DNA of 64,000 bases, taken from Lysobacter arenosi (GTDB lineage Bacteria > Pseudomonadota > Gammaproteobacteria > Xanthomonadales > Xanthomonadaceae). Where the stretch lies: contig NZ_CP071517.1 of NCBI RefSeq assembly GCF_016613475.2, positions 2,728,001 to 2,792,000 on the forward strand, read 5' to 3'. The notes beneath the pieces were generated by a model. The model did no database searches. It had not been told where the DNA came from and was given only the letters and a program-made list of their open reading frames with translations. This document shows positions 31,448 to 48,144 of the stretch, in pieces. Numbering within the stretch: the first letter of the stretch is position 1; the number at the start of each line of letters is the position of its first letter. Made by a program: the position numbers and the translations under genes.

Positions 31448-31479
31448 ATTGCCCGCGCAAAAAGCGCAGGCAATAAAAA
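31443..31479. repeat. 11-bp perfect inverted repeat
   Basis: TTTTTATTGCC and GGCAATAAAAA flank a 15-base centre that itself contains a GCGC/GCGC stem. The AT ends let it work as a bidirectional terminator. It also contains TTGCCC and, 17 bases on, AATAAA, which resembles a + strand promoter. Confidence 0.6.
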
Positions 31480-31509
31480 GCCCCGCAGGCAGGGGGGGCC
31501 GGCGGGGCT
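31470..31509 (-). terminator. Rho-independent terminator downstream of polA
   Basis: On the minus strand AGCCCCGC and GCGGGGCT form an 8-bp stem followed by TTTTTATTG. It lies about 305 bp after the polA stop, so the polA mRNA may have a long 3' untranslated region, or it may end a separate small RNA. Confidence 0.7.
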
Positions 31510-31715
31510 GGTGGAGCGGGACCTGGGGAGGGGTCTTCGCTCCGGGGGATCACTCCAGGGGAGGGAAGAGATCTACGACAGGCGTTGCACCTGTCGCGAC
31601 CTATATGACCATTCCGTACATGGATGGTTCGTGAAGATTCGGGTTAACAATCCGTTGGATTCAGGACGGATTCATTCTGGGAAAACGATTACCCCGCCGG
31701 TTTTCCTGTTCAGCC
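31485..31715 (+). ncRNA. Candidate small RNA region rich in GGA hairpin loops (speculative)
   Basis: This non-coding stretch between polA and the DUF421 gene is less GC-rich than its surroundings and folds into several small stems on the + strand: CGACAGG/CCTGTCG, ACCAT/ATGGT enclosing GTACATGG, and AATCCGT/ACGGATT with TGGATTCAGG in the loop. The 12-mer GTACATGGATGG at 31616 is close to the CsrA/RsmA consensus. A possible promoter (TTGCCC, 17 bases, AATAAA) lies at 31449-31477. No clear terminator with a T-tract is seen before polA, so transcript and strand are unproven. Confidence 0.3.
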
Positions 31716-38813: not shown

Positions 38814-40994
38814 TCACGCCGGCTGCAGGTTCGCGTACGCCAGCACCAGCCACTTGCTGCCGGCATCGTCGAAGTTGACCTGCACGCGCGCGTGCGCGCC
38901 GGCGCCTTCGTAATCGGTGACCGTGCCCGTGCCGAAGCTGGGATGGCGCACCATCGCGCCGAGCTTGATCGGCGGCGCCTCGATCGCGGCGTGGCCCATG
39001 TCGCGGCGCGGCTGCGAGTTGTACATCGGCCGCGACACCTGCACCTTCGGCCGCACCTCGTGCAGCAGCGCCGGCGGAATTTCGCGCAGGAAGCGCGACG
39101 GCACGCCGTACATGTCGGCGCCGTGGATGCGGCGCGTCTCGGCGTAGCTCAGCACCAGCTTCTGGCGCGCGCGGGTGATGCCGACGTAGGCCAGGCGGCG
39201 CTCTTCCTCGAGACGTCCTGACTCCTCGGTCGAGCGTCCGCTCGGGAACACGCCCTCTTCCATGCCCGCCAGGAACACCAGCGGGAACTCCAGGCCTTTG
39301 GCGCTGTGCAGCGTCATCAGCTGCACGCCTTCCTCGCCGGCCTGGGCCTGGCCTTCGCCGGCCTCGAGCGCGGCGTAGCTGAGGAAGGCGACCAGTTCCG
39401 GCATCGCCGCGGCGTCTTCCTCGTCGGTGCGGGAGAAGCGCGAAGCCACCGACACCAGTTCGTCGAGGTTGTCGACGCGCGAGTCGAGCTGGCCGCGCGA
39501 TTCGTTGAAGTAGTGGTCGCGCAGGCCCGAGCGGATCAGGACGTGGTCGATCTTTTCCGGCAGCGTCATCGGCTGCACTTCGGTGTCGATGTCGTCGATC
39601 AGGGCGAGGAAACCGGCAATCGCGTTGCGCGCCCTCGCGGTCAGGCCGTTCTCGCTGACCGTGCGCCGCGCCGCTTCCCACAGTGCGACCGCGTCGGTGC
39701 GGGCGCGACGGCGAATCTCGTCGAGCGTGCGCTCGCCGATGCCGCGCGTGGGCGTGTTGACCGCGCGTTCGAAGGCGGCATCGTCCAGGCGCGAGGCGAT
39801 CAGGCGCAGGTAGGCCAGGGTGTCCTTGATTTCGGCGCGCTCGAAGAAGCGCTGGCCGCCGTAGACGCGGTACGGCACCTGCTCCGAAAGCAATGCTTCT
39901 TCGAAGGCGCGCGACTGCGCATTGCTGCGATAGAGCACGGCGACTTCGCCGAAGCTGCCACCGTCGCGCACCCACTGGCGCAGGCGCTCGACCGCGAAGC
40001 GCGCCTCGTCCATCTCGTTGTAGGCCGCGTACAGATCGATCGGCTCACCGGTGCCGCTGTCGGTCCACAGGTTCTTGCCGAGGCGGTCGGGGTTGTGGGC
40101 GATGACGGCGTTGGCCGCTTCCAGGATGTTGGCGCTGGAGCGGTAGTTCTGCTCCAGGCGGATGGTCTGGGTTCCTGGGAAGTCCTTCAGGAACCGCTGC
40201 ATGTTCTCGACCTTGGCGCCGCGCCAGCCGTAGATCGACTGGTCGTCGTCGCCGACCACGAACACGTGGCCGCTGTCGCCGGCGAGCACGCGCACGAAGG
40301 CGTACTGGATCGCGTTGGTGTCCTGGAACTCGTCGACCAGGATTTCGCGGAAGCGGTGGCGGTAGTGCGCCAGCAGCGCCGGGTTGTCGCGCAGCAGTTC
40401 GTGCGCGCGCAGCAGCAGCTCGGCGAAGTCGACCAGGCCGGCACGTTCGCAGCGCTCCTGGTACGCCTCGTAGGACTTGAGCATCACGTCGGCCCACGGA
40501 TCGTTGCCGGCCGGCTGGATGTTCTGCGGGCGCTTGCCCTCGTCCTTCTGCGCGTTGATCCACCAGGCGATCTGGCGCGGCGGGAAGCGGGCCTCGTCGA
40601 TCTCCAGGCCCTGCACGACGCGCTTGACCAGGCGCAGCTGGTCGTCCGAGTCGAGCACCTGGAAGCCCTCGGGCAGCTTGGCTTCCTGCCAGTGCAGGCG
40701 CAGCAGGCGGTGGGCCAGGCCGTGGAAGGTGCCGATCCACATGCCACGGGCGCCATTGCGCAGCTGCCCGTCGACGCGCGCGCGCATCTCGCCGGCGGCC
40801 TTGTTGGTGAACGTCACCGCCAGGATGCCGTGGGTGGGCACGCCGTGGACTTCGTTGAGCCAGGCGATGCGATGAGTGAGCACGCGGGTCTTGCCGGAGC
40901 CAGCGCCGGCGAGGACCAGATAGTGACCGGGCGGGGCGCTGACGGCCTCGCGCTGCGCTGGATTCAGCGCGTCGAGCAGGTGGGAGACATCCAT
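38814..40994 (-). CDS. uvrD: DNA helicase II (UvrD/Rep family)
   Basis: Superfamily 1 helicase for nucleotide excision and mismatch repair, 726 residues. Walker A LAGAGSGKT (about 29-36), TFTNKAAGEMR, the DEFQDTN Walker B, GDDDQSIYGWRGA, LEQNYRSS and the late motif LMTLHSAKGLEFPLVFLAGMEEG are intact. The C-terminus resembles the UvrD tudor-like domain. The Lys/Arg-rich Rep variations are absent, so UvrD is favoured over Rep. Confidence 0.96.
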   Translation of the reverse strand: MDVSHLLDALNPAQREAVSAPPGHYLVLAGAGSGKTRVLTHRIAWLNEVHGVPTHGILAVTFTNKAAGEMRARVDGQLRNGARGMWIGTFHGLAHRLLRLHWQEAKLPEGFQVLDSDDQLRLVKRVVQGLEIDEARFPPRQIAWWINAQKDEGKRPQNIQPAGNDPWADVMLKSYEAYQERCERAGLVDFAELLLRAHELLRDNPALLAHYRHRFREILVDEFQDTNAIQYAFVRVLAGDSGHVFVVGDDDQSIYGWRGAKVENMQRFLKDFPGTQTIRLEQNYRSSANILEAANAVIAHNPDRLGKNLWTDSGTGEPIDLYAAYNEMDEARFAVERLRQWVRDGGSFGEVAVLYRSNAQSRAFEEALLSEQVPYRVYGGQRFFERAEIKDTLAYLRLIASRLDDAAFERAVNTPTRGIGERTLDEIRRRARTDAVALWEAARRTVSENGLTARARNAIAGFLALIDDIDTEVQPMTLPEKIDHVLIRSGLRDHYFNESRGQLDSRVDNLDELVSVASRFSRTDEEDAAAMPELVAFLSYAALEAGEGQAQAGEEGVQLMTLHSAKGLEFPLVFLAGMEEGVFPSGRSTEESGRLEEERRLAYVGITRARQKLVLSYAETRRIHGADMYGVPSRFLREIPPALLHEVRPKVQVSRPMYNSQPRRDMGHAAIEAPPIKLGAMVRHPSFGTGTVTDYEGAGAHARVQVNFDDAGSKWLVLAYANLQPA

Positions 40995-42744: not shown

Positions 42745-45686
<2,942 letters not shown>

Positions 45687-45708
45687 TCCACTGAGTTGGG
45701 AGATGCAG

Positions 45709-45736
45709 ACGGGCCGCCATGCGGCCCGTTTTCTTT
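45709..45736 (+). terminator. Rho-independent terminator of the GST-peptidase pair
   Basis: ACGGGCCGC, CAT and GCGGCCCGT form a perfect 9-bp stem followed by TTTCTTTT, 22 bp after the peptidase stop. Confidence 0.92.
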
Positions 45737-45754
45737 TGCACGGTTGTCGCAGGG

Positions 45755-45830
45755 GGAGGAGGTGGGGTGTACTTCCGCGAACCTCCGCTTCGCTCCGTTT
45801 ACTGTTCGCGAAATACACCCCACCCCCTCC
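45755..45830. repeat. Long imperfect inverted repeat (27-28 bp arms)
   Basis: The left arm (45755-45782, GGAGGAGGTGGGGTGTA then CTTCCGCGAAC) and right arm (45804-45830, GTTCGCGAAATACACCCC then ACCCCCTCC) pair with few mismatches around a 21-base loop. No coding frame in it looks genuine. It could be a miniature element or a structured RNA. Confidence 0.7.
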
Positions 45831-46067
45831 TTCCGGAAGCTCCTACTGTTCTATTGACTTCAACTGGTGGCGAGAGCGCAGTGCCCGCGTGATGCAGTTG
45901 CGACGGTCGGACTCGCGCTGTGCCGGCCCTGGACGGTGTCCGTGCCCTCGCTCATTCGCACGTCTGCTCGGTGACCTAGGTCCCGGACGCCCGCGAAAGG
46001 AAGTGGTCGTTCCAAACCCAGGGGGGTTGAAGAGAGGGCAACGAAGACAAGGAAATGAATTGCCGAA

Positions 46068-46182
46068 GCGTCGTCCGCCGGGTCGGGGATTGCGCAGCAG
46101 CGGGACATGGATGTCCCGCGCCCCGCATCAGACAGGATGTCTGACTAAGGGGCGGAGCAATCCCCGGCCCGGCGGACGACGC
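46068..46182 (+). ncRNA. Large three-way-junction element with two CsrA/RsmA-type hairpins
   Basis: Arms of 26 bp (46068-46093 and 46157-46182) match except for one position, giving a closing stem. Inside are two hairpins. The first has stem GCGGGACA/TGTCCCGC with loop TGGA (46100-46119). The second has stem TCAGAC/GTCTGA with loop AGGAT (46128-46144). Both present GGA in the setting ACA-x-GGATGT or ACAGGATGT, the recognition pattern of CsrA/RsmA. The GGA loops exist only on the + strand. The element lies 138 bp before the DUF885 gene and could be its leader, a separate small RNA, or a repeat. Confidence 0.5.
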
Positions 46183-46320
46183 CGCTCCGCAGACGCAAGC
46201 CACGAAGACCCGAAGCCCCAAAGCCCCAAAGCCAAAAAAGCGGCCCCGTGACCTTCGGGGTATAGCCTCCAGCGCCCGCAGCCGCCATGCTCGCCGGACT
46301 TTCCGCTGACCCGCGAAGCC

Positions 46321-48144
46321 ATGATCAAGCCGCTGACCCTTGCCATCGCCCTGACCCTCGCCGCGGGCACGCCCGCCCTGCTCCAGGCCGCCACGCCTGC
46401 TGCCAAGGCGCCCGCCACGAAGAGTGCTGCCGCCAAGGCCTCGCCGGCCTGGGTGACCAAGAGCAACGAGTACGCGCAGATCCTGCTGAAGGCGCAGGCC
46501 GAGTTCGCACCGGAACAGATGTCGTTCTTCGGCGTGCCGGGCTACGACGACCGCGTCGTCGACCTCAAGCCCGACAACGCCAAGCGCTTCCGCGACGCCA
46601 CCACCAAGGCCAAGGCCGAACTGCAGACCAGGCTCGCCACCGAGCGCGACCCGAACGTGCGCCAGGACCTGGCGATCATGATCCAGGCCGCCGACGAGAA
46701 CATCGAAACCAGCGCGCTCAACGAACGCCTGACCCTGCCGTGGACCGATGCACCGCAGACGGTCTTCAGCGGCATCAAGGGCCTGCTCTCCGACCAGACC
46801 CCGCCGGAGCGCCGCGCACGCGCGCTCGACCGCCTCAAGGCCTATGTCGGCCAGGCACCTGGCACCACCCCCATCACCGAACTGGCACGCGCCCGCTACG
46901 AAGAGCGCACCGGCGACAAGGCACTGCTGCGCCCGACCAGGCTTGAAGTCGAACAGGCACTGGGCAACGTCGACACCTACGTCGCCGGCATCAAGGACCT
47001 GTTCGCCAAGTACAAAGTCTCCGGCGCCGAAGAAGCGCTCGCGGCGATGGACACCCAGCTCAAGGCCTACGGCCAGTGGGCGCGCACCAGCGTGCTGCCG
47101 GAAGCGCGCACCGACACGCGCCTGCCGGCCGAGCTGTACGCCAACCAGCTCAAGCAATACGGCATCGACATCGACCCGCAGCTGCTGATCCGCCGCGCCC
47201 AGGTCGAGTTCATGGAAACGCGCGCCGCGATGCAGCAGCTCGCACCGCTGGTGGCCAAGGACAAGGGCCTGAAGGTCGGCGACGTGCACGACTACGTCGG
47301 CGTAATCAACGCGCTGAAGCAGCAGAGCATGCCCAACGACCAGCTCGAGGCGCGCTACCGCACCGTCATCGACGCGATCGACCCGATCATCCGCAAGGAG
47401 GGCATCGTCGACGTGCCGCAGCGGCCGATGGTGATGCGCCTGGGCAGCGAGGCCGAGTCAGCCGCGCAGCCGGCGCCGCATTTCCTGCCGGCACCGCTGA
47501 TCGGCAACACCGGCCAGCAGGGCCAGTTCGTGCTGCCGGTTTCGGTGCCGACGGCGGACGGCAAGGCTCTGTCGTACGACGACTTCAACTTCGATGCGGT
47601 GCGCTGGACGCTGTCGGCACACGAAGGCCGTCCGGGCCATGAGCTGCAGTTCACCGCGATGGTCGAGCGCGGCATCTCGCTGGCGCGCACGATGTTCGCC
47701 TTCAACTCGGTCAACGTCGAAGGCTGGGCGCTGTACGCCGAAGCCGAGATGGTTCCGTACGAGCCGCTCGACGGCCAGCTGATCGCGCTGCAGTTCCGCC
47801 TGATGCGCGCCGCGCGCGCGATGCTCGACCCGATGCTCAACCTGGGCCTGATCGACCGCGAAGCCGCGGGCAAGATCCTTCGCGAGAAGGTCGGTCTGTC
47901 TGAGGCGATGACCAAGCAGGAGCTGGACCGCTACACCTTCAACGCCCCGGGCCAGGCCGGCAGCTACTTCTACGGCTACACGCGCATCCTCGAACTGCGC
48001 ATGGAGACCGAGGTGGCGCTGGGCGACAAGTTCGACCGACTGGCGTTCAACAACTTCCTGCTCGACCAGGGGCTGTTGCCGCCGGACCTGCTGGCGAAGG
48101 CGGTGCGTGAGGTGTTCGTGCCCGCGCAGAAGGCGAAGAAGTAA
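46321..48144 (+). CDS. DUF885 family secreted protein, probable metallopeptidase
   Basis: A 607-residue exported protein with a signal peptide (TLAAGTPALLQAATP). The C-terminal half has the DUF885 core HEGRPGHELQ (His434, Glu435, His440, Glu441), which resembles a zinc site. Nearby are FNSVNVEGWALYAEAEM and LREKVGLSEAMTKQELDRYTFNAPGQAGSYFYGY. Family members are thought to be peptidases; the substrate is unknown. The upstream 634-bp gap to the DPP IV-like gene holds a terminator and two large inverted repeats. Confidence 0.88.
   Translation: MIKPLTLAIALTLAAGTPALLQAATPAAKAPATKSAAAKASPAWVTKSNEYAQILLKAQAEFAPEQMSFFGVPGYDDRVVDLKPDNAKRFRDATTKAKAELQTRLATERDPNVRQDLAIMIQAADENIETSALNERLTLPWTDAPQTVFSGIKGLLSDQTPPERRARALDRLKAYVGQAPGTTPITELARARYEERTGDKALLRPTRLEVEQALGNVDTYVAGIKDLFAKYKVSGAEEALAAMDTQLKAYGQWARTSVLPEARTDTRLPAELYANQLKQYGIDIDPQLLIRRAQVEFMETRAAMQQLAPLVAKDKGLKVGDVHDYVGVINALKQQSMPNDQLEARYRTVIDAIDPIIRKEGIVDVPQRPMVMRLGSEAESAAQPAPHFLPAPLIGNTGQQGQFVLPVSVPTADGKALSYDDFNFDAVRWTLSAHEGRPGHELQFTAMVERGISLARTMFAFNSVNVEGWALYAEAEMVPYEPLDGQLIALQFRLMRAARAMLDPMLNLGLIDREAAGKILREKVGLSEAMTKQELDRYTFNAPGQAGSYFYGYTRILELRMETEVALGDKFDRLAFNNFLLDQGLLPPDLLAKAVREVFVPAQKAKK

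Follow-up and report, generated by a model that had tools for sequence, protein, structure and literature searches.

A fast-moving intergenic repeat of Lysobacter arenosi, related to TwoAYGGAY, presents two hairpins predicted to be RsmA/CsrA sites

A structured element in the window (the whole stretch of 64,000 nucleotides that was analyzed, G000:C1:2728001-2792000) was found to be one copy of a dispersed, fast-moving repeat of a TwoAYGGAY-related kind. The genome of Lysobacter arenosi (G000), a single contig of 3.95 Mb, held 24 near-complete copies, and the most constant bases of the repeat were those that RsmA/CsrA needs. At a probability of roughly 0.55, we favor the reading that this repeat is dispersed as part of an intergenic mosaic and that its + strand, if transcribed, would form a TwoAYGGAY variant with twin RsmA/CsrA sites. 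The role of such a transcript is predicted from sequence.

The core of the element is a closing stem of 26 pairs, one of them a T/G wobble, formed on the + strand by a 5' arm at 46068 to 46093 and a 3' arm at 46157 to 46182. Within it lie hairpin 1 at 46100 to 46119 (GCGGGACA-TGGA-TGTCCCGC, with GGA at 46109 to 46111), hairpin 2 at 46128 to 46144 (TCAGACA-GGA-TGTCTGA, with GGA at 46135 to 46137, or alternatively read with an AGGAT loop) and an inner stem composed of GCCCC at 46120 to 46124 and GGGGC at 46149 to 46153. The GGA loops were present on the + strand only. A preliminary description of this DNA had proposed a 26-bp closing stem around two such + strand hairpins, and both sequence and fold bore this out. 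The minimum free energy of the + strand was -99.6 kcal/mol, whereas shuffled sequences averaged -61.1 (z -8.6) and none of 200 shuffles reached the same stability. The bottom strand folded equally stably (-99.8, z -9.1), and stability therefore gave no choice of strand. The limits of 46068 and 46182 given in the preliminary description held for the core but were slightly short for the repeat. The 24 own copies have in common a 5' flank starting with CGAAGAC (here 46042 to 46067) and mostly also a 3' flank with TCCGCAGAC (here 46183 to 46195, containing CTCCGCAGACG), so that the complete interspersed unit, as defined by their alignment, extends on the + strand from about 46042 to 46195. A CG[ACG]AG motif was found within 45 nt 5' of the element in 124 of the 162 copies compared across genomes.

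Besides the 24 near-complete copies, which lay beside many different genes, the genome contained two longer partial copies (L025 and L026) and 15 places with short arm matches (E up to 1). Among the 24, double changes were seen in 15 of the 43 predicted pairs, and the stem of hairpin 1 switched between CGGGACA/TGTCCCG and TGGGCCA/TGGCCCA with a constant TGGA loop. The search for the arms and hairpins in relatives, suggested beforehand along with that of the own genome, gave matches further afield. With R1, a covariance model built from the own-genome copies, matches were obtained in 8 of 39 genomes (G000, G007, G014, G016, G021, G028, G038 and, at one place, G032). Across the order, 25 of 398 genomes (own included) from 11 of 98 genera had matches at E 1e-6, a lower bound, since the filters were strict and 9 candidates were scored in each genome. 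Among 11 other genomes of the same genus, G007 was the sole carrier and the remaining 10 were without any R1 match; hence, the element is dispensable. Lysobacter prati, with at least 63 copies, was the only named species exactly matching a 25-base core pattern, in a search that may omit very near records. Four L. prati loci (L145, L166, L171 and L174) had extra copies of the 3' arm in tandem after the element, which slippage or template switching may have left behind.

When copies were compared side by side, the closing stems differed almost entirely between genera yet remained complementary, while the GGA loops persisted. This was the reverse of the pattern that the preliminary description had named as pointing to a mere repeat, namely, arms retained with GGA loops lost. 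Exceptions were six partner structures in G014 with arms and without GGA loops and the 15 own-genome places with short arm matches only. The covariation that the preliminary description had proposed to test with a covariance model was also found: in an alignment of 40 divergent copies fitted to the model, 96.1% of cells paired versus 36 to 46% with slid partners, and double changes occurred in 41 of 43 pairs, including all 23 closing pairs. In the same fitted alignment, the two innermost pairs of hairpin 1 were C-G and A-U in 40/40 copies. Hairpin 1 read CANGGATG in 162/162 copies, a count that is partly circular because hairpin 1 was part of R1 and also of the pattern with which L. prati was searched. 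For hairpin 2, 155 of the 162 copies had CA(N)GGA (not counting L051, whose motif match falls outside the hairpin) and 150 had CA(N)GGAXG; this hairpin was retained in 61 of 63 L. prati copies, though absent from the L. prati pattern. Its variable bases were those before and after GGA, positions that are free in the RsmE consensus, and in other genera it also read CATGGATG, CAGGGATG, CAAGGATG, CACGGACG and the like. The 162-copy set omits the G032 match (GGA loops on the strand opposite the match), the six GGA-less G014 partners, 3 of the 23 G007 places, the own partial copies L025 and L026 and all mirror-strand matches of R1; from the further order-level matches it includes only 8.

The GGA loops did not reflect a general property of these genomes. 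GGA was not enriched among all genomic hairpin loops in three genomes, ranking 35th to 39th of the trinucleotides, and the loop is therefore special to the family of the element. In 20 sampled stretches of the own genome, amounting to 400 kb, three same-strand pairs of GGA hairpins (stems of at least 6 pairs, within 70 nt) were found, all of them copies of the element. The 64-kb window contained the element and one unrelated pair at 39089/39125; the latter (39089 to 39130, + strand) has 6-pair stems and is unlike the family of the element. G-U counts over whole folds differed in sign between genomes and did not single out the + strand.

TwoAYGGAY (RF01731) was described in 2010 as a structure without assigned function, and a 2010 table gives it as probably an RNA and probably not cis-regulatory. 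In Rfam it is placed in clan CL00106 and typed cis-regulatory, and in the accessible text of PMC4333381 CsrA binding by TwoAYGGAY is independently proposed. TwoAYGGAY and the element have in common a closing stem, two GGA-loop hairpins on one strand and variable stem sequence, and on testing, the closing stem around both hairpins was found to covary in the element as well. In this genome the loop of hairpin 1, AUGGAU, fits AYGGAY, whereas that of hairpin 2, AGGAU, does not; both hairpins had AYGGAY loops in some copies of G038, G028 and G014. RF01731 scored above its gathering cutoff of 43 bits in 4 of 17 carrier genomes searched (G038, G021, G028 and G352), and its match in G021 (50.9 bits at G021:C31:158114-158236) was the place of an R1 match. 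Matches below the cutoff coincided with R1 matches in G016, G028, G038 and G272. Neither G000 nor G007 had a match at E 0.1, and membership by score was accordingly ruled out for this genome. Given the overlap elsewhere and the lack of matches in these two genomes, the element is best described as a variant adjoining TwoAYGGAY, not as a member by score.

TwoAYGGAY itself was found to be repeated in some genomes. A sample of 369 genomes from the class Gammaproteobacteria yielded 14 with RF01731 matches; seven with at least six matches, searched in full, had 6 to 29 each and 108 in total, and the other seven had one or two each in the class sample search. Among the 108, neighboring matches within 600 nt were arranged minus-then-plus, i.e., head-to-head and facing outward, in 24 of 25 pairs. 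A similar arrangement was seen around the present element. Only 24 of its 162 copies had a twin-GGA partner within 600 nt, but in 24 of 25 cases this partner was on the 5' side and in the opposite orientation; cases are counted by copies, so that both members of some pairs are included. A TwoAYGGAY-like partner was present beside copy L023 in the own genome. A report of TwoAYGGAY as a dispersed repeat was not found by literature searches or in the portions available of PMC4333381, PMC2864571, PMC11701678, PMC7694677, PMC4005645, PMC4383904, PMC3733652 and PMC3116915. Other paired arrangements were also observed. In G493, loci L239, L253 and L234 are palindromic units of ∼480 bp that end in repeats such as TCGTAACAAAAAGTCACCAAAAA and contain two TwoAYGGAY structures facing outward. 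The GGA-less partners in G014 (L035, L044, L051, L057, L075 and L076) are inverted, have similar arms with AAAAAGGGCCGAAGGCCC replacing the GGA loops and sit ∼240 nt from a GGA element. In G032, L039 has a related-looking fold, with two GGA hairpins on the strand opposite the R1 match and in reverse order.

The copies turned over rapidly. Both flanks were common to a G007 copy in only 5 of the 24 own copies when 20 of the 23 known G007 copies were compared, with a further, one-sided partial match to G007 at L023. For 12 other own copies the orthologous site in G007 was sought by means of joined flank pieces; 11 were matched, 10 of them with both flanks. At these 10 sites the element was absent in eight and represented by the 5' arm only in two, where the arm adjoined downstream sequence, an arrangement that loss of the hairpin part would give. 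GTAG-type palindromes stood in place of the element at 5 of the 10 sites. Such GTAG-tagged palindromes were seen in G007 at gene ends where the own genome has a GGA element (L206, L207, L208, L209 and L211). A clean target-site duplication was not readable at the empty G007 sites, since these differ by whole mosaics. The arms of the element are inverted repeats; a MITE would combine terminal inverted repeats with such a duplication. Searches gave no support for carriage on other replicons: no plasmid match was obtained for the window element or for G280 copy L198, and no phage match for L198, the one copy covered by that search.

The surroundings of the copies were themselves composed of repeats. 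A second dispersed repeat, module A, occupies 45752 to 46020 (+ strand) and was delimited by own-genome and locus comparisons. It occurred at 11 places in this genome, 8 of them about full length, and lay just 5' of the element (9 places) or of an arm remnant (2 places), always in the same orientation. Module A starts with an inverted repeat at about 45752 to 45831. Pieces similar to it were seen in L. prati loci L186 and L190. Small palindromes that, by eye, we take to be of a CGTC-type-like kind were present within 60 nt 5' of 55 of the 162 copies (39 in L. prati, 9 in G000 and 7 in G007). As module A and the palindromes precede the copies, the element appears as one module of an intergenic mosaic. 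The neisserial intergenic mosaic elements (NIME) are likewise built from several intergenic repeat modules arranged in a constant order, and by analogy the order of module A, small palindrome and element may be compared with them.

The genome has one CsrA/RsmA gene, and 47 of the first 53 residues of its product are identical to the solved CsrA chain 7yr6_E, a P. aeruginosa protein. The high-affinity RsmE/CsrA site is an ANGGAX hexaloop directly on a stem, according to the accessible text of PMC4005645. Hairpin 1, with AUGGAU on a C-G pair, fully fits this form; the fold program pairs the A and U of the hexaloop, which leaves the TGGA loop. Hairpin 2 is here without the N base and is predicted to be a weaker RsmA/CsrA site; several other genera have copies in which it shows the complete ANGGAX form. 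The earlier statement that both hairpins fit the SELEX consensus well needs a small correction for hairpin 2, in which ACA-GGA-TGT has no base before GGA and is one base short of the consensus as quoted there. In the part of PMC7694677 available to us, no CsrB/RsmY/RsmZ homologue is reported in Xanthomonas, and an RsmA antagonist unlike these would therefore be no surprise. CsrB/RsmY/RsmZ-type sRNAs and RsmU of Xanthomonas campestris likewise carry GGA motifs on one RNA as RsmA sites; the element differs in having two sites per copy, many copies and no promoter found.

In the mechanism proposed, a long, freely varying closing stem would hold a pair of hairpins displaying RsmA/CsrA sites: the high-affinity ANGGAX form in hairpin 1 and the shortened AGGAU form in hairpin 2. 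As an RsmA dimer has two RNA faces, a strand with two sites would be a fitting ligand for one dimer. Transcripts extending into a copy would sequester RsmA or hold it at the 3' region concerned, and many copies together would constitute a dispersed RsmA sink. We lean slightly toward the view that the loops persist because the transcript binds RsmA/CsrA. The preliminary description had suggested an RsmA-sequestering RNA; of this, the two CsrA/RsmA-type loops that persist while the stems covary across genera stand as observations, and binding is a prediction from them. A repeat may spread as DNA and still act as RNA. Counting against an RNA role were the lack of a sigma-70-like promoter at 45600 to 46400, a terminator-like hairpin at 45707 to 45738 (+ strand) 3' of the upstream S9 peptidase gene (one of 2 such sites found at 45600 to 46400, with 0.9 expected from shuffles), the DNA-like orientation bias and convergent preference described below, the absence of a clear orientation preference in tandem gaps, the GGA-less partners, the arm remnants, the G-U test, which did not single out the + strand, the lack of RF01731 matches among the own copies and the 10 same-genus genomes without the element.

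A second explanation, to which we assign a substantial minority chance, is that the element is purely a DNA-level structured repeat of a REPIN- or MITE-like kind, its folded single strand and GGA loops being recognized by a mobilizing or replication-linked protein and RsmA playing no part. High copy number and turnover (5 of 24 copies shared with G007, 8 of 10 sites empty) and head-to-head inverted pairs agree with it, as does orientation. With fork direction taken relative to dnaA and the terminus assumed opposite, arcs that GC skew supports weakly, 20 of 25 copies in G000 and 20 of 23 in G007 ran against the fork. After five shared loci were dropped the figure was 35 of 43 (p 4e-5); genes in sampled stretches ran with the fork in 238 of 404 cases. 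We attribute this bias to dispersal or loss at the level of DNA rather than to transcription. Neighboring genes, called with a simple codon-based gene finder, were examined for 88 copies, of which 82 had both neighbors: 34 lay between convergent genes and 5 between divergent genes, and in tandem gaps 24 were co-oriented and 19 opposed. Convergent gaps were about four times over-represented (19 versus 4.8 expected, G000 and G007 together), a preference also described for REPs in the available part of PMC3733652. Together with the fork bias it looks like a DNA-level process. In tandem gaps the orientation of the element did not follow transcription (24 co-oriented versus 19 opposed), and the 58 of 82 copies with a co-oriented 5' neighbor are about what many convergent sites alone would give.

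According to the accessible text of PMC3733652 and PMC3116915, REP/REPIN and CGTC-tagged (dRS3-type) repeats are intergenic, of high copy number, located at gene 3' ends and found as inverted doublets. The first three features hold for the element, and inverted partners accompany 24 of its 162 copies. The element differs from REP/REPIN in having a three-way fold of ∼150 nt instead of 20 to 40 bp, and no GTAG or CGTC tag of its own was seen. At E 0.001, the Y1 (RAYT) transposase PF01797 had no match in this genome, and a RAYT-mobilized REP was accordingly ruled out. Counting against a purely DNA-level repeat are the lack of this enzyme here, the recurrence of paired GGA hairpins in TwoAYGGAY beyond this order, and loop variation at the positions that the RsmE/CsrA consensus leaves open, for which a DNA recognizer offers no obvious explanation.

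That the element is a gene-end structure serving convergent genes, selected for its strong stem and acting as a terminator, an attenuator or a protector of mRNA ends, appears improbable. The over-representation of convergent pairs (19 versus 4.8) and the position of the element's 3' end, often near the stop codon of the opposing gene, are as such a function would have it, but the stem of the element itself gave no terminator-like site on either strand, and two conserved loops on one strand are not something that a bare stem requires. In the window, the element lies between a DPP IV/peptidase S9 gene (43431 to 45686) and a DUF885 gene (PF05960; 46321 to 48144), both on the + strand and identified by gene call and domain match. 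A dedicated 5' leader regulating the DUF885 gene, as the preliminary description had offered, is very improbable and already contradicted, since the 3' arm does end 138 nt before the start codon on the same strand but the element is a multi-copy insertion beside many different genes, and in the closest genome, G007, the DUF885 orthologue (protein 96% identical; orthologues were present in all 11 same-genus genomes searched) has an upstream region without it.

For the favored reading, of a mosaic-borne repeat whose transcript would carry twin RsmA/CsrA sites, the consequence would be that repeat copy number tunes a global regulator, if the binding is real, and carriers with dozens of copies beside same-genus genomes with none would constitute a natural experiment. 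If it is not, the element is a strand-biased structured repeat with no known mobilizing enzyme. A broader idea is put forward tentatively and seems to us rather doubtful: a mobile DNA class may spread ready-made RsmA/CsrA sites, with TwoAYGGAY-type units, head-to-head or single, passing with a replication-strand bias through the gene 3' ends of Gammaproteobacteria. Copy number would then set free RsmA, and a selfish repeat would act as a genome-wide sponge in bacteria without CsrB/RsmZ. Elsewhere in the window, the only Rfam match at gathering score was sX13, an sRNA of the Xanthomonadaceae, at 31474 to 31586 on the - strand (70.7 bits).
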